Of a stretch of DNA of 64,000 nt, positions 5,644 through 28,978 are shown piece after piece. Under the pieces are notes generated by a model, which was given only the letters and a program-made list of their open reading frames with translations, did no database searches and was not told the DNA's origin. A program made the position numbers and the translations under genes. Where the stretch lies: NCBI GenBank assembly GCA_018401565.1, contig JAGYKS010000029.1, forward strand, positions 1 to 64,000. Direction: 5' to 3'. This DNA is from Acidimicrobiales bacterium (lineage in GTDB: Bacteria; Actinomycetota; Acidimicrobiia; Acidimicrobiales; Acidimicrobilacustridaceae). The first letter of the stretch is position 1. The number at the start of each line of letters is the position of its first letter.

Positions 5644-6333
5644 GTGAGTATCCCCCCTTCAGTTGAGCCTGAAACGCCCGATGTCGGTGTGCGGGTTCCG
5701 CAGTCCGACGTCGGGGGACCGCAGCAGACACGGGCACGTCACCCCCGTCGGTCAGGGTTGCGGACGGTTGTGGAGTGGATCGTGGTGATTGCAGCTGCTG
5801 TGGTGGTGGCGCTGGTCATCCGTACGTTTGTGGCCCAGGCCTTCTACATTCCGTCGGAGTCCATGGAGCCGTTGCTCCAACGCAACGACAGGGTTGTGGT
5901 GGACAAGCTGACCTACGACTTCGATGACATCAGCCGAGGTGACGTCATCGTGTTCGAGAAGCCATCCTCAGCGCCTGGCAGCGATATCGCCGACTTGATC
6001 AAGCGGGTCGTCGGACTGCCCGGTGACTCGGTCGTGGTCGATGGCGGCGTGGTCTACATCAACGGGTCGCTCCTCGAGGAGCCTTACCTTCCCGAGGGCA
6101 CGTTCACTGGACAGGGGTCGGGAACCCCCCAACCGGGAAGCACCGGCTTGGCACCACGTTGCGGTGTGGCCGACCCCTGCGTGGTGCCGGACGGGTATGT
6201 GTTTGTCATGGGAGACAACCGCTCGAACTCCAAGGACAGTCGATGGACCGACCTCGGCTACGTCGGTTCGGACCAACTGGTGGGCAGGGCGTTCGTGCGT
6301 GTGTGGCCTCTGGACCGACTGGGCGGCATCTAG
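5644..6333 (+). CDS. lepB: Signal peptidase I
   Basis: Membrane serine protease that removes signal peptides from Sec and Tat exported proteins (family S26). A charged, Pro-rich cytoplasmic N-terminus (about 40 residues) precedes one membrane helix (about residues 41-62, VVEWIVVIAAAVVVALVI). The catalytic Ser is in PSESM (Ser about 73) and the catalytic Lys is in LIKRVVGLPGD. The box MGDNRSNSKDSR is also present. 229 residues, intact. The chosen GTG start is supported by the -10 element 7 nt upstream; the open frame extends further upstream only inside pafC. Its placement between pafC and the tat genes fits protein export. Confidence 0.95.
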   Translation: MSIPPSVEPETPDVGVRVPQSDVGGPQQTRARHPRRSGLRTVVEWIVVIAAAVVVALVIRTFVAQAFYIPSESMEPLLQRNDRVVVDKLTYDFDDISRGDVIVFEKPSSAPGSDIADLIKRVVGLPGDSVVVDGGVVYINGSLLEEPYLPEGTFTGQGSGTPQPGSTGLAPRCGVADPCVVPDGYVFVMGDNRSNSKDSRWTDLGYVGSDQLVGRAFVRVWPLDRLGGI

Positions 6334-21652: not shown

Positions 21653-22081
21653 TCACGACGGGATCGGGCCACCTGCAGCGCGTGGCTCCAGCCAAAGCCC
21701 GGCCAACGGACGGGCGTTGTCCATGACCCACTCCAGTGCCAGCCGGCCTTCCCGTGGGTCGTCGGCCGCACCGGCGAGATCCCGGTCGACGTCTTCAAGC
21801 GCCGCCGCAAGGCAGTACAACGCCCCGGCGAGTTCGTCCAGGCCTGCCCGGGACACCACGACGTCATCAGCAGCCAGCTCGAGTGCGCCGGACTGACGCC
21901 GGGCGACGTACGCCTGCTGGCGACACCCCTGACGGCAGTAGCTGCGTCGCCGACCTGGCCCAGAAGGCTGGGCGATCGGTCGGCGGCACCAAAGGCAACG
22001 CTCATCTGGCGCTTGATGGCCCCGGCGAGGGTCGGGGCCCACCACAGCCCCGCCACCGTCCCTATCGGGCAATTTCGTCAC
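21653..22081 (-). CDS. Hypothetical protein with a Cys-rich zinc-finger motif
   Basis: 142 residues. Near residues 29-62 it has CLWCRRPI then GRRRSYCRQGCRQQAYVARR, a CxxC...CxxxC type zinc-binding knuckle seen in many small actinobacterial proteins. The remaining part is helical (LELAADDVVVSRAGLDELAGAL, WVMDNARPLAG). Function unknown; DNA or protein binding is plausible. GTG start at 22081 is supported by a TAATAT -10 six bases upstream, so it has its own promoter although it follows the secreted protein gene by 38 bp. Confidence 0.65.
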   Translation of the reverse strand: MTKLPDRDGGGAVVGPDPRRGHQAPDERCLWCRRPIAQPSGPGRRRSYCRQGCRQQAYVARRQSGALELAADDVVVSRAGLDELAGALYCLAAALEDVDRDLAGAADDPREGRLALEWVMDNARPLAGLWLEPRAAGGPIPS

Positions 22082-22119: not shown

Positions 22120-23418
22120 TCAGCCCGTGAACTTCGGGGTGGCCGTCGATGCCGTGACCGGCACAGGCGTCGTTGCTGGCGCAGCGGGCGCTACTGCTGG
22201 ATCAACGGGCGTCACCGGAACCATGGGGGCTGCAACTGGCCACACGGCGCTGTGTCGGTTTCGAATGTGACCGGCTGTAGGGGGAACGACACCAGAGCCA
22301 GGCCGTACACGCCCTGACGGGTGGCGAACTGATCGGGTCCACCGTCGCTGTAGATGCTGGTGAGGGCGCCGGCATCGGCCTCGTCGCAGGGAATCTGCTG
22401 TGAGGCCAACCACGTCACCGGGTCCACGCCGTCTTGCACCCATCGCCCGGCGGTGGGGTCCTCCCCGCCGACACGATGGCGGCAACGACCAGCGACGTGG
22501 AGTTCGGGACGGCGTCGCCTCCGCCATACCAGGCAAAGCCACCACTGGGCTCCTGCCACCGGGCCAGGAAGTTGAGGCCGCCAGCTACCTCGTCTGGATA
22601 GGTCTGCAACGCTGCAAGTGCCATCACGGCCAACGACGTGGAGTCGTTGTCAGCTCCGGAGAAGTTGTTGGGGTCAGGGGCGGTACACGGGTCGGCGATG
22701 TCGCGGTAGGCCATCCAGCCGCCATCGGCGAGGGGGTCACCGGGTCCGGCAGCACAGCGCTGGTCGACAAGCCATGTCACTGCTGTCGCAGGTGGTGTCT
22801 GGCCCGCCGACACCAGTCCGAGGATTGCCAACGACTGGCGGAACACACCGTCGTAGGTTGGGTCGAGCTCGCCGAACAGGCCCGGCTCCCGGCACCCAAT
22901 GTGGACGTCAGTGCAGCCAACAAATCGACACCGCCGAAGCTGCCGGGATCGATGCCGGTTGCCCCGGCAAGCATCAGCAACACACCAATGGTGCCGGGTC
23001 CGCTGGGTCCACCGTCAGGGGCGACGATCTCGTCGACATTGGCCACAATCCAGCCCATGGCCCGGTCAAAGGCAGCCTGGTCCACACCCGTGGCAGCCAG
23101 TGACAGTGCGATGTCGAGCGTCGAGCTGACGTCGACCTGCCCTGCTGAAAAGGGGCTGGTGGCCGTGCCATCGGGCCCCACCTGGCTGGCCAGCCATAGC
23201 GCGGCGTTGCGGGCCGGAATGCTTGAGGTCGGTGTCGGTGTGGCCGATGCGATCGGGGCCACTCCAAGACCCGTGGTCACCATGGCGACCACGGCGACCA
23301 CAGCCACCACGATGCGCACGGAAACCGAACGGGCACGGGCCGAACGGGCGCGAGCTGAACGGGCACGGGCTGAACGGGCAGGGATGACCGATGAACGGTC
23401 TGGACGGGAACTTGTCAC
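22120..23418 (-). CDS. Secreted alpha/alpha-barrel protein (terpene-cyclase/transcobalamin-like fold), three frame breaks
   Basis: About 433 residues. A basic N-terminus with ARSAR repeats precedes a signal peptide (VRIVVAVVAVVAMVTTGLG, then PIASA). The mature part has repeated helical motifs typical of alpha/alpha barrels: NAALWLASQV, STLDIALSLAATG, DGGWMAYRD, NDSTSLAVMALAAL, GGFAWYGGGD, ATRQGVYGLALVSF. The C-terminus is Pro/Ala/Thr-rich (VTPVDPAVAPAAPATTP) and ends TPKFTG. Frame breaks at about 22888 (lost C), 22460 and 22225-22229 (C5 run lost one C); correction gives one continuous protein. A cobalamin riboswitch lies upstream. Vitamin B12 carriers (transcobalamin, intrinsic factor) use this barrel, so extracellular B12 binding is the main hypothesis. 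Confidence 0.75.
23320..23385 (-). repeat. Coding tandem repeat (ARSAR units) in the signal-peptide region
   Basis: About four 15- to 18-base units (GAACGGGCACGGGC on the + strand) encode repeated ARSAR before the signal-peptide hydrophobic core. Confidence 0.7.
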
Positions 23419-23421
23419 GTT

Positions 23422-23457
23422 GGGGTTCTCCTCTCGGTGGGTGGGCCGGAGAACCCC
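23422..23457 (-). promoter_or_regulatory. Ribosome-binding-site sequestering hairpin
   Basis: GGGGTTCTCC (23422-23431) and GGAGAACCCC (23448-23457) form a perfect 10-bp stem. On the reverse strand the 3' arm overlaps the GAGAGGAG ribosome-binding site of the GTG at 23418. It looks like the translational switch of the B12 riboswitch. Confidence 0.75.
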
Positions 23458-23464
23458 GTCTGCA

Positions 23465-23497
23465 CACCCTGGCAAGCCCTCAGGGGGCGACAGGGTG
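23465..23497 (-). promoter_or_regulatory. Hairpin in the riboswitch expression platform
   Basis: CACCCTG (23465-23471) pairs with CAGGGTG (23491-23497), between the aptamer and the ribosome-binding-site hairpin. An alternative or antiterminator stem in the platform. Confidence 0.45.
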
Positions 23498-23515
23498 GGC
23501 GTGACGACATTCGCT

Positions 23516-23666
23516 GGCTCATCCCGCTTTCCACGACGGGTGTGATTGAGCCATGCCTCCGAACAGGCATTCCGACTCGCCGGATTCCAGGGCATGCCCT
23601 GGCTCCGGCCTACGGCTGCGGGACAGCGCCGGACTTTGACCGGCTTCCCCCGCACGGAGGCAATGG
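23516..23666 (-). ncRNA. Cobalamin (B12) riboswitch
   Basis: On the reverse strand the conserved core GGGGAAGCCGGUCAAAGUCCGG, then GCUGUCCCGCAGCCGUAGG, then GAGCCAGGGC and the B12-box-like GAGUCGGAAUGCCUG appear in order. The ends are closed by CCAUUGCCUCCG (from 23666) pairing with CGGAGGCAUGG (to 23551). A further stem GGCUCA/UGAGCC spans 23516-23552. It controls the downstream secreted protein, probably by hiding its ribosome-binding site when B12 is bound. Confidence 0.88.
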
Positions 23667-23805
23667 AATTTCCTAGCTCGCTAACCCAACCACAGTTCGG
23701 TGGATGGCGCAACAACCCTGCTGCGCCCCTGTGATCTGATCCATTGCGCCCACCCTGCGTGCGGGTTCAGGGCCCCAGAACCACCCCTCACCGATGCTGA
23801 GCAGG

Positions 23806-23811: not shown

Positions 23812-23836
23812 CACAGTCACAACCAAAGCCAGCCAC

Positions 23837-24042
23837 CACCTGCGGGAGAGTCCGACACAGTCGTCGGGCGCCGAAGGAGCAACCGCCCCGGAATCTCTCA
23901 GGCTTCCGTACCGCAGGTGCAGGCAACGCTGGAGAGTGGTGTCGGCAACAGTCATGTTGCCGGTACCCACCGACGGGGAAACCCGCCCGAACCGCCCCCC
24001 GGGGTGGCCAGGGCGGCGAAGCTCTCAGGTCCAACGACAGCG
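23837..24042 (+). ncRNA. Tandem glycine riboswitch
   Basis: Two glycine aptamers in series. Aptamer 1 (23837-23919) is closed by CACCTGCGG/CCGCAGGTG and has GGGAGAGUCC, GCCGAAGGAGCAA and CUCUCAGGC. Aptamer 2 (about 23926-24042) has GCUGGAGAG, CCCGCCCGA, GGCGAAGCUCUCAGG and CAACGACAGC. It sits about 77 nt before gcvP. Known examples turn on glycine cleavage genes when glycine is abundant. Confidence 0.92.
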
Positions 24043-24118
24043 GGGGGCAGCACACTCGACGATCGCGCCGCGGTCAACGTTCGTGTCACCTGTGCGCCCG
24101 ACCCCGAAAAGGACCACC

Positions 24119-27048
24119 ATGAGCACCAGCCCCACTCCCCTCCCGGCTATGTCGTCATCACTGGCGGATCTCGGAGACGACGACGCTTTCATCGGTCGTC
24201 ACATCGGACCCGGCGCCGCCGATGTGGCCCACATGCTGTCGGTTGTGGGCGAGGAGTCGCTCGCCTCGCTGGTGGACCGCATCGTGCCGTCGTCGATCCG
24301 CTGGGACAAGCCACTGGAGTTGGAACCCCCGACATCGGAAACCGCAGCCCTGGCCAGGCTGCGACAGCATGCTGACCGCAACAAGGTGCTCACCTCGCTG
24401 ATCGGCCTCGGCTATCACGACAACATCACCCCTGCGGTGGTCGCCCGCAATGTGCTCGAAAACCCCGCCTGGTACACCGCCTACACCCCTACCAACCCGA
24501 GATCGCCCAGGGTCGGCTTGGAGGCGCTGGTGAACTTCCAGACCATGGTGAGCGACCTCACCGGCATGGATCTGGCCAATGCCTCGCTGCTCGACGAACC
24601 GACCGCCGCCGCCGAGGCGATGGCCATGTGCCTGCGTCTGGTCAGTGGCGACCGGCAGGTGTTCGTGGTCGACAGCGCATGCCATCCCCAGACCATTGCC
24701 GTGGTGGCCACCAGGGCGGCGTCCATCGGCATCGACCTCCGCATCGGTGACCCCGGCGAATTGCTGAACGATCCAGCCGACGGTGGCATCGCCGATGGCA
24801 CCCTCATCGGGGTGCTGGTGCAGTACCCCGATACCACCGGGGCCATCATCGACCATCGCCACCTGGCCGACACCGTGCACGCCGCCGGTGGTCTGCTGGT
24901 GGTGGCTGCCGACCTGCTGGCGCTCACCGTGCTCACCCCACCCGGCGAGTTCGGAGCCGACGTGGTCGTTGGTTCAGCGCAGCGGTTCGGGGTCCCCATG
25001 TGGTTCGGCGGACCCCACGCCGGATTCCTCGCCACCCACGAGGACAACAAGCGCACCCTGCCGGGTCGTCTGGTCGGAGTGTCGGTGGATGCCGCCGGTC
25101 GGCCCGCCTACCGTCTGGCTCTGCAGACCCGGGAGCAGCACATCCGCCGGGAGCGGGCCACGTCCAACATCTGCACTGCCCAGGTTCTGCTGGCCGTGGT
25201 GGCCGGCCTGTACGCCTGCTGGCACGGTCCTGAGGGCCTGCGCGCGTATCGCCACCCGCACCCAGCGCCTCACCGCACTGTGCGCCGAGGGACTGCGTCG
25301 TTCCGGACTGGGCATGGTCAACGACAGCCACTTCGACACCTCACGGTGTCGTTGCCTGGAGAAGCCGACGCTGCGCTGGATGCGGCAGTGGGCCTGGGGC
25401 TGAACCTGCGCCAGGTGGGTGCCGATGCTGTGGGCGTCTCGTTTGACGAGACCAGTACCCGCGCCACGGTGGCATTGGTGTGGGAGGCGCTCGGGGTCCC
25501 GGCGCTGGACATCGATGATCTCGACATCAGCGTGGATGTGGGTGCGGGGATCCCAGCCCACGCCGTTCGCACGTCGGACTACCTCACCCATCCGGTGTTC
25601 TCCAGCTATCACGCTGAGACCGACATGCTGCGGTACCTGCGTCGTTTGTCGGACAAGGACGTGGCCCTGGACCGGGCCATGATTCCGTTGGGGTCATGCA
25701 CCATGAAGCTGAATGCAACCTCGGAGATGACCCCCATCTCGTGGCCGGAGTTTGCCGGCATGCACCCATTCGCCCCACTGGATCAGGCCGAGGGCTACCT
25801 GGCCATGATCCGTGAGCTCGAAAACGCCCTGACCGAAATCACCGGCTACGACTCGGTGTCGCTGCAGCCCAACGCCGGAAGTCAGGGTGAGTACGCCGGG
25901 CTGCTGGCAATCGCGGCGTGGCATCAGCATCGGGGTGAACCCCAGCGCACGGTCTGTCTCATCCCGTCGTCGGCCCACGGCACCAACGCAGCGTCGGCGG
26001 CCATGGCCGGCATGCGGGTGGTGGTCGTGGATTGCGACGACAACGGCAACGTGGACGTCGACGACCTGGCCACCAAAGCTGAGCTCCACGCCGACAACCT
26101 GTCGTGCCTCATGGTCACCTACCCGTCGACTCACGGCGTGTTTGAGGAGCGCATCGCTGAAATTTGTGATCTGGTGCACGGCCACGGCGGCCAGGTGTAC
26201 CTCGACGGTGCCAACCTGAACGCCCTGGTGGGCATCGCAAAGCCGGGATTGTTCGGCGCCGATGTCGGCCACCTCAACTTGCACAAGACGTTCTGCATCC
26301 CCACGGTGGCGGTGGTCCGGGGGTTGGTCCGGTGGGAGTCAAGGCCCACCTTGCACCGTTCCTGCCGTCGTCTCCTCTGGTGGACGCCGCCGGCCCCACA
26401 CCCGGTGTGGGTGCGATCTCTGGCGCCCCGTGGGGTTCGGCAGGCATCCTGCCCATCCCGTGGATGTACGTCACCATGATGGGTGCACACGGTTTGCAGT
26501 CGGCCACTGCCCACGCGTTGCTGTCGGCCAACTACATGGCCAGGCGATTGGGCGACCACTACCCGGTGCTGTACTCGGGCCGCAACGACCTGGTGGCCCA
26601 CGAGTGCATCCTCGACCTGCGACCCATCACCAAGGCCACCGGTGTGACGGTTGACGATGTGGCCAAGCGGCTCATCGATTTCGGGTTCCACGCCCCCACC
26701 ATGTCGTTTCCGGTGGCCGGGACCCTCATGATCGAGCCCACCGAGTCCGAGCCGTTGGCAGAAATCGATCGATTCTGCGACGCCATGATCGCCATTCGCG
26801 GTGAGATCGATCAGGTTGCAGCCGGAGTCTGGCCGGCTGACGACAACCCGCTGCACAACGCCCCCCACACCGCCGAGGACGTCACTGCCGACGCCTGGGA
26901 TCACCCCTACCCCCGATCGCTGGCAGCTTGGCCGGCAGCCAGCCTGCGTCTGGCCAAGTACTGGCCGCCGGTCAGCCGCATCGACGGCGCCTACGGCGAC
27001 CGCAACCTGATGTGTTCGTGTCCCCCGGTTGAGGCGTTCGCAGACTGA
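24119..27048 (+). CDS. gcvP: Glycine dehydrogenase (decarboxylating), P-protein (three frame breaks)
   Basis: PLP enzyme of the glycine cleavage system. It decarboxylates glycine and passes the aminomethyl group to the lipoyl arm of GcvH. Single-chain form, about 976 residues with two related halves. The N-terminus is [13 protein letters not shown]; the PLP lysine is in [17 protein letters not shown]. Frame breaks: about 25252 (extra G) and about 25341 (lost C) compensate each other around [20 protein letters not shown], and a third lies in CCCC at 26299-26302 (one C lost). Corrected, the protein ends [14 protein letters not shown] 24119 has AAAAGGA upstream. Controlled by the glycine riboswitch; converges on gcvT. 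Confidence 0.95.
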
Positions 27049-27088
27049 ACAGCGGGACTGCGCCCAGCCCGGTCCTGGGTCGCGGGTC

Positions 27089-28169
27089 CTACACGAACGG
27101 CAGGGTGACCACTTTGAGCGTCCGCACGCCGCCTCGGGATTCAACCTCGAGCGACTCACCGATGGCGGCTCCGTCGGCCACCAGGGCCATGGCGATGCCC
27201 ACGCCCAACCCAGGTGAGAAGTTCCCGGAGGTGACGGCGCCAACAACAGCGCCGTTGCGGAGAACCTCGTCGCCCTCACGCGGCGGTCGCCGATCACTTG
27301 CGCGCAACGCCACCAACGTGCGTCGTGCCCCGGCGTCGCGCTCGGCGGCCAGGGCGTCGCGGCCGCGGAACGGTCCCTTGTCCCAGGCCACCACCCAGCC
27401 CAGCCCCGCCTGCAGCGGTGTGATGCCGGCTCCCAACTCATGGCCGTGCAGCGGGAGTCCGGCTTCGAGTCGAAGGGTGTCTCGTGCTCCCAGTCCGGCC
27501 GGGGTGATCCGGCGGCGATGATCGCTGCGAACAGCTCCGTGCCGCCCTGTCGGCCGGCACGGCGATTTCCACGCCGTCCTCACCGGTGTACCCGGTGCCC
27601 GCCACGGTGCAGTGCACGTCGCCGATCACAACGTCAGCAACCCGGAACCTTCCCACCGCTGCGGCCTCCGGACTCACCGGGGCGAGCAGCGTCCGGGCGT
27701 TGGGACCCTGAACGGCAAGCACTGCCCTGGTTGCGGTGACGTCGCTGACCGCCACACCTTCGCCGGCTTCGACCAATGCCCCGACCACCCGATCGGTATT
27801 GGATGCGTTTGGCATGACGTCGAACACGTCGTCGGCGATCCACCACACGATGATGTCGTCGGTCACCGAGGCGTCGTCGGGGTCGAGCAGGTGGGTGTAC
27901 TGGGCCCGACCCGGACCGATGCGGCCCAGGTCATTGGTGAGGACGGCCTGCAACGTGGCCAGCGCACCTGCTCCCGACACGCGAACGGTTCCCAGATGGC
28001 TGACGTCGAACACCACGGCTGCGTCCCGACATGCCCGATGCTCGGCCAGAGTTCCTTCGGGATAGGACAGCGGCATGTCCCAACCACCGAAGGGGACCAT
28101 GCGGGCACCCAGAGCCCGGTGCTCAGAATCCAGTGGTGAGGTCCGGATGCTGTCGTGTGAGGCGTCCAT
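27089..28169 (-). CDS. gcvT: Aminomethyltransferase, T-protein of glycine cleavage (two frame breaks)
   Basis: Transfers the one-carbon unit from the aminomethylated lipoyl arm of GcvH to tetrahydrofolate and releases ammonia. Conserved blocks: MVPFGGWDMPLSYPEGTLAEH, VFDVSHLGTVRVSG, TNDLGRIGPGRAQYTHLLD, GTGYTGEDGVEIAVP and LRLEAGLPLHGHEL. Around 27507-27546 the frame is broken twice (each a lost base): RAGTELFAAIIAAGITPAGLGARD is read only by joining three frames. About 359 residues when corrected. ATG at 28169. It faces gcvP tail to tail, so it lies outside the glycine riboswitch; its own leaderless-type -10 is at 28178-28183. Confidence 0.95.
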
Positions 28170-28177
28170 GACCCCGA

Positions 28178-28183
28178 ACACTA
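28178..28183 (-). promoter_or_regulatory. -10 element of gcvT
   Basis: Reverse-strand TAGTGT, 8 nt before ATG 28169. Confidence 0.5.
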
Positions 28184-28213
28184 CCCGTGCCCCAACCGGT
28201 CGCCCCGACCCGG

Positions 28214-28978
28214 TCAGCCCCCTGCAGGAGGCAATGGGGCCATTGGCCCGCTGGCGGCAAGACGCTCGACGTGCCCATCGGCCACTTCGCACTGATCGGG
28301 GTCGGCGCCCCAGCCCACCATCAGGCTGCGCGTCAGAAGTCTCGACAGGTTGGTGACCCGGAACAGGTGACGGTCGACCGCCGCCAGTCCGTCGAGATCA
28401 AGCACGGCGTTGATCCCCGACAGCCACACCAGTGCCCGGGCCTGGTCGTCGCCGGGGGTGAGCACGCCAGCGACGACGGCGTCGGTCAGTAGCGATGCTG
28501 GCCTGAACAGCAGATCGTCGACCACTGCGGCCACGTCGCTTCGCTCCCGTCCAGCGCCGTCGGACGCCCCCACCCGTGTTGCAAGAAGTTGTCGGGCCAG
28601 TGCGCATTCATCGGCGAGAACCACCGAGGCCGCCGTCCAGAACGAACCGAAGGCCGTGAGACGTACCAACGCCACCAGCGATTCGGGCAGGTCGTCGCCA
28701 GCCAACTCGGCGTCCCAGCGCCCAACGGCGGCAAGCAGCGATGCACCCAGCGCCGACACCGCCTCCGCCTGCAGCCCGGCTTCGAGCTCAGCCTTGGACG
28801 TGAAGTAGGTGTAGAGGGTTCCCACCGCACAGTCGAGTTCATCAGCAACAGCCTGCATCGTGAGCCCACCGAGGCCCTCCCGATCGATCACGATCTGCGC
28901 TGCGGCGAGAACCCGGGCCCGACGCTGGTCACGTGACCGACGCCGTCGATCATTGGGCACTGCACGTAGATGAACCAC
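28214..28978 (-). CDS. TetR-family transcriptional regulator
   Basis: 254 residues. The N-terminal helix-turn-helix domain (about 15-65) reads RRARVLAAAQIVIDREGLGG, then LTMQAVADELDCAVGTLYTYFTSKAELEAGL, a clear TetR recognition helix. The C-terminal ligand domain is helical (SLVALVRLTAFGSFWTAASVVLADECALARQ). GTG start at 28978, with TAATCT four bases upstream inside a perfect inverted repeat, so self-repression is likely. The ligand is unknown; it is 44 bp upstream of gcvT on the same strand, but that gene has its own promoter. Confidence 0.88.
   Translation of the reverse strand: MVHLRAVPNDRRRRSRDQRRARVLAAAQIVIDREGLGGLTMQAVADELDCAVGTLYTYFTSKAELEAGLQAEAVSALGASLLAAVGRWDAELAGDDLPESLVALVRLTAFGSFWTAASVVLADECALARQLLATRVGASDGAGRERSDVAAVVDDLLFRPASLLTDAVVAGVLTPGDDQARALVWLSGINAVLDLDGLAAVDRHLFRVTNLSRLLTRSLMVGWGADPDQCEVADGHVERLAASGPMAPLPPAGG

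Follow-up and report, generated by a model that had tools for sequence, protein, structure and literature searches.

The gene at 22120-23418 (-) of the window (the whole stretch of 64,000 nucleotides of Acidimicrobiales DNA that was analysed) very probably specifies one half, the alpha half, of a surface catcher of corrinoids that resembles transcobalamin but consists of two chains and would feed an ECF importer. A preliminary description had tentatively read the product as a secreted transcobalamin-like barrel protein, and this interpretation gains support from the fold, the riboswitch, the linkage of its homologues to ECF genes and the loss of the DXDD motif of terpene cyclases. The features of the window are listed in Table 1.

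Table 1. Features of the barrel gene and its surroundings in the window.
Feature	Position	Strand	Basis
Cobalamin riboswitch aptamer	23544..23673	-	RF00174 39.4 bits, gathering threshold 31.5, E 1.8e-6
Hairpin GGGGTTCTCC (16 nt loop) GGAGAACCCC	23422..23457	-	MFE fold and centroid
Secreted alpha/alpha-barrel protein, SCO2321-like, transcobalamin alpha-domain-like; three frame breaks	22120..23418	-	NF053823, homologues, AF2 model of L208
Signal peptide (basic stretch, hydrophobic core, ASA cleavage site)	23242..23418	-	Read from the translation; equivalent in relatives
P-x-F-T-G-stop tail after Pro/Ala/Thr linker	22120..22137	-	Conserved in nearly all family homologues
Downstream gene, 142 aa, CxxC...RRYCRQGCRQ zinc-ribbon-like protein	21653..22081	-	Directly downstream, same strand, 24 family loci

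The cobalamin aptamer that had been placed ahead of the gene at 23551-23666 (-) is recovered by RF00174 above the gathering threshold, with slightly wider borders. A model of our own built from relatives (R1; 14 training sequences, the aptamer of the window among them, all 14 above Rfam's own threshold) locates the riboswitch core at 23563-23652 with 81 bits. Only two cobalamin riboswitches are present in the whole genome. A perfect 10 bp hairpin with arms at 23457-23448 and 23431-23422 lies between aptamer and start codon, and the ribosome-binding site just 5' of GTG 23418 is paired within it in the MFE fold and in the centroid. Similar ribosome-binding-site hairpins occur in the relatives L033, L034, L035 and L038, and in L033 and L038 the arms differ yet remain paired, which fits the expectation for a translational switch; a simple search of the other relatives found no clear hairpin at the corresponding place. 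Judged from these sequences, the hairpin is likely a translational off-switch, for which ligand-dependent control is predicted. Linkage of the homologues to cobalamin riboswitches is near-universal. In the window's family, a riboswitch adjoins the barrel in every one of the 24 loci with upstream sequence; among 80 loci of GTDB genomes, 75 have it, and of the remaining five, three are cut by a contig end. About 15 loci are common to the two counts. Some of the counted loci were used to train model R1, but Rfam detects many of the loci independently.

Across Actinomycetota, barrel relatives are followed directly 3' by the gene of a small secreted (beta) protein and then by an ECF importer, in the order barrel, small secreted protein, ECF T component (CbiQ family), double ATPase (A) and ECF S component. 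Profiles of the L122 operon detect the complete beta-T-A-S set with the barrel in 38 of the 80 GTDB loci and a partial set in 12 more, a linkage of barrel homologues to an ECF importer; 14 loci have too little downstream sequence, and 16 are truly without a nearby beta-T-A-S set, 11 of these possessing the window-type tail. For some lone-barrel loci outside the window's family, the nearest 7 kb or so contain no importer. Within that family, the barrel gene lies next to gcvP without beta or importer, which are encoded elsewhere, under a riboswitch of their own in every examined locus with upstream sequence. The beta-T-A-S genes of the window genome lie on another contig (C5, locus L061) behind the only other cobalamin riboswitch of the genome (L061:8578-8676), and match the L122 profiles with E-values of 1e-46 (beta), 4e-99 (T), 3e-236 (A) and 7e-102 (S), the L061 loci having belonged to the set used to iterate these profiles. 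The S component of the window genome has no match in Pfam or NCBIfam; from riboswitch and gene context, the importer would carry cobalamin. As the two halves are on different contigs, the evidence that they are partners comes from operons and fusions in relatives. The window genome lacks the corrin-ring gene CbiC and contains five B12-binding domains, one of them in a MetH-sized frame; as CbiC is missing in 8 of 9 family genomes and the completeness of the window genome is 90.6%, the organism probably depends on B12 from outside.

The AlphaFold model of the beta protein of the relative L237 has a pLDDT of 85. Its top Foldseek match among 350,542 chains is the beta domain of human transcobalamin (5no0; TM 0.68 on the target, probability 1.00, with a weak E of 0.03), and matches 1-7 are all transcobalamin. 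The partner protein is accordingly modelled with the transcobalamin beta fold. Beta proteins have no match to any Pfam model: DUF4430 (PF14478) gives none in 61 genomes at E 1e-3 and none in 15 beta proteins at E 1, and the beta alignment profile finds only chance matches, to photosystem I subunit F, among PDB sequences. In L062 (from a genome of the window's family) and L230, each of which has a riboswitch, a single chain combines barrel and beta in the order known from animals; similar joined chains occur in L107, L113 and L114. These fusions support a joint function. In the window gene the beta domain is absent from the same chain and forms the separate gene at C5. The earlier remark that a Pro/Ala/Thr tail takes the place of a C-terminal DUF4430 domain stands as far as the tail is concerned, and has to be amended in that a beta-type domain is encoded elsewhere in the genome. 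The suggestion of a separate type of protein is therefore withdrawn, since the DUF4430-like domain exists as a separate protein under the second riboswitch, outside the Pfam DUF4430 model. Two divergent cobalamin riboswitches are also found in genome G006 (L172:2009-2339), one before beta-T-A-S and the other before a second gene with beta and barrel regions.

According to the proposed mechanism, low B12 would free the translation of both transcripts. The barrel would be exported and probably held at the cell surface by its P-x-F-T-G tail. The beta-grasp partner, membrane-anchored and encoded at the head of the ECF (T-A-S) operon on the other contig, would bind the corrinoid (B12 or related) from the side opposite the barrel, and the vitamin, clamped between the chains, would be handed over to the ECF S component and imported. 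Once B12 suffices, the riboswitch on both transcripts would hide the ribosome-binding site and synthesis would stop, the hairpin that pairs this site being the one found on the barrel transcript. Separately produced alpha and beta domains of human transcobalamin assemble only upon addition of cobalamin (PMC5599065), which makes a two-chain version mechanistically sound. That the system is a naturally split transcobalamin, whose two separately encoded, separately riboswitched and differently anchored chains join only around B12 and pass it to the ECF importer, with the barrel held by P-x-F-T-G, is put forward tentatively, as a reading that falls a little short of probable.

A variant compatible with the two-chain catcher concerns the ligand: the barrel-beta pair might catch incomplete corrinoids (cobinamide, other cobamides) for salvage and rebuilding. 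The L122 operon runs on into cobT (PF02277) and then an apparent cobS (recognised by eye), which rebuild the lower ligand, and the S component of ECF-CbrT accepts cobinamide besides cobalamin (PMC5997447). On the other hand, transcobalamin binds cobinamide less tightly (PMC5599065) and cobT/cobS are seen in a single operon; this variant is possible, if on balance unlikely. Quite improbable is a barrel that acts without beta, as a surface store or for sequestration, keeping B12 near the cell or from competitors. Such a role would suit the barrel of the window's family, which lies apart from the beta and importer genes and carries another surface tail, but the examined family genomes retain beta-T-A-S under a riboswitch of the same type, and fused barrel-beta chains exist.

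The tail on which surface retention of the barrel would depend is not confined to this protein. Of the P-x-F-T-G-type sites, 13 of 50 are located directly before a stop codon in the window genome, 24 of 69 in G004 and 0 of 41 in G038. The sites before a stop comprise the one in the window (Table 1) and 12 others across the genome, after Pro/Thr/Ala linkers and strongly above chance. Most of 30 P-x-F-T-G matches that were read out terminate long, secreted-looking frames. Within the class, the tail is common only in the window's family and in family f96. No NCBIfam sorting model matches it, and the literature searched yielded nothing relevant on C-terminal sorting signals of Acidimicrobiia. Barrel homologues elsewhere possess other anchors, i.e. 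LPxTG-like signals with a membrane helix (12 of 80), S-layer domains (L102) or membrane helices. As P-x-F-T-G replaces these anchors, it is probably a surface-retention signal, and we regard it as a candidate for a new surface-sorting signal that does without a membrane helix.

The barrel gene itself begins at GTG 23418 with a signal peptide (VVAVVAVVAMVTTGLGVAPIASA), continues into a helical-repeat protein with GGW and STSLAVMAL motifs and ends in a Pro/Ala/Thr tail. This order agrees with the preliminary description, with the frame differing between the pieces; those matching homologues are 23418-22876, 22891-22445, 22469-22215 and 22239-22123. Barrel homologues are present in 31 of 61 genomes searched, the own genome counted, and those of related genomes mostly have an open frame. 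Members of the family share two invariant cysteines as well as D-x-N-S-T and DPNSTA repeats. The three frame breaks of the barrel gene are most likely assembly errors, because homologues have unbroken genes and because two further genes of the window, gcvP and gcvT (23936-28292), are likewise split over two frames, which suggests frequent frame errors in the assembly. There is only a very slight chance that these breaks mark the window copy as a decaying pseudogene, functionless here; this reading was rejected, as the gene is open in relatives, the same kind of breaks affects the housekeeping genes gcvP and gcvT, and no damage is seen in the aptamer, the hairpin, the motifs or the tail. The 142 aa gene downstream is probably co-transcribed with the barrel gene; its product is without match in Pfam or NCBIfam.

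The sole annotated match of the barrel is the NCBIfam SCO2321 family NF053823 (E 3.3e-47, 161 bits, below the curated cutoff of 300); the read-through window protein has no match in Pfam, nor in PDB with phmmer. The structures predicted were those of relatives, the intact L208 for the barrel and L237 for beta. The AlphaFold (AF2) model of L208, based on 46 sequences, is an alpha/alpha barrel with a core pLDDT of about 97. Squalene-hopene cyclases rank first in its Foldseek search (8pak, E 3e-9), and transcobalamin is also significantly matched (7qbg, E 1.2e-4; 8ixu, E 1.4e-4), so that the fold search places transcobalamin among the matches of this relative and the barrel fold alone is not decisive. 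The DXDD motif of the cyclases aligns with the D-x-N-S of the barrel. Among 149 homologues it is intact in just 2, most having DTNS; the window shows DNDS and its nearest relatives ETDA. The catalytic motif of this enzyme class is thus lost, and a type II terpene cyclase was rejected. A secreted enzyme, terpene-cyclase-like or of another alpha/alpha-barrel kind and B12-regulated by chance, could appeal to squalene-hopene cyclases as top PDB matches by sequence and by fold, and is hardly credible for a barrel that has lost DXDD, is secreted and is tied to a beta domain and an ECF importer.

Among known systems, the two-chain catcher resembles animal transcobalamin, intrinsic factor and haptocorrin in combining an alpha/alpha barrel with a beta-grasp domain, both halves matching by fold, and the fused relatives share the alpha-beta order of animal transcobalamin in one chain. 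It differs from the animal carriers in having two chains, separate loci, riboswitches and an ECF importer rather than a receptor; identity with animal transcobalamin is low (12-21% in structural alignments). The cobalt-coordinating histidine of the alpha7/alpha8 loop is missing in most intrinsic factors and haptocorrins (PMC11107200), and is therefore not decisive for membership. Bacterial B12 scavengers resembling transcobalamin have been proposed before: for low-GC Gram-positives, planctomycetes and some archaea, Burroughs et al. (2007) predicted B12 scavenging by proteins with SLBB and alpha/alpha-toroid domains encoded next to CbiO/CbiQ genes, and they suggested a transfer to animals (PMC1796856). 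Those SLBB/DUF4430 proteins share with the present ones the two domains, the predicted role, the CbiO/CbiQ (ECF-like) operons and surface anchors, whereas the present proteins belong to Actinomycetota, have domains missed by the Pfam DUF4430 model and are split over two riboswitch loci. What is new is this division between two loci with a riboswitch each, together with actinobacterial families that Pfam does not cover and a circular permutation. The genes for T component, double ATPase and S component are shared with the cobalamin importer ECF-CbrT (PMC5997447), from which the window genome differs in an S component that lacks a Pfam or NCBIfam match and whose specificity is deduced from context.

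The NCBIfam families SCO2321 (NF053823) and SCO2322 (NF040672), for which no function is given, are significantly matched by barrel and beta, respectively, both below cutoff, and precede the same ECF genes in Streptomyces. Compared with the window's type, both families show a circular permutation. Permutation against the Acidimicrobiia type is found in Streptomyces and Nanopelagicales for the barrel in L266, L279, L249 and L261 and for beta in L266, L279, L276 and L271, and explains the low SCO2321 scores. Literature searches for SCO2321 and SCO2322 gave nothing relevant; the present results suggest a function for these two families named after Streptomyces locus tags alone. They further indicate that capture of B12 in the manner of transcobalamin is widespread among Actinomycetota, and have a bearing on the origin of animal transcobalamin. 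A two-chain form that occurs in nature and has intact relatives would permit the direct study of B12-dependent assembly of the halves, which so far has been shown with artificially separated human domains.

On the other side of the barrel gene, a tandem glycine riboswitch (RF00504, 64.1 and 39.9 bits) is located upstream of gcvP at 23833-24046 (+). The gcvP side diverges from the B12-switched gene, and the gcvP neighbourhood is kept in most relatives. Genome G015 apparently contains two barrel copies (L043 and L060); in L043 a second riboswitch (5816-5894) follows the first barrel copy at the contig end.
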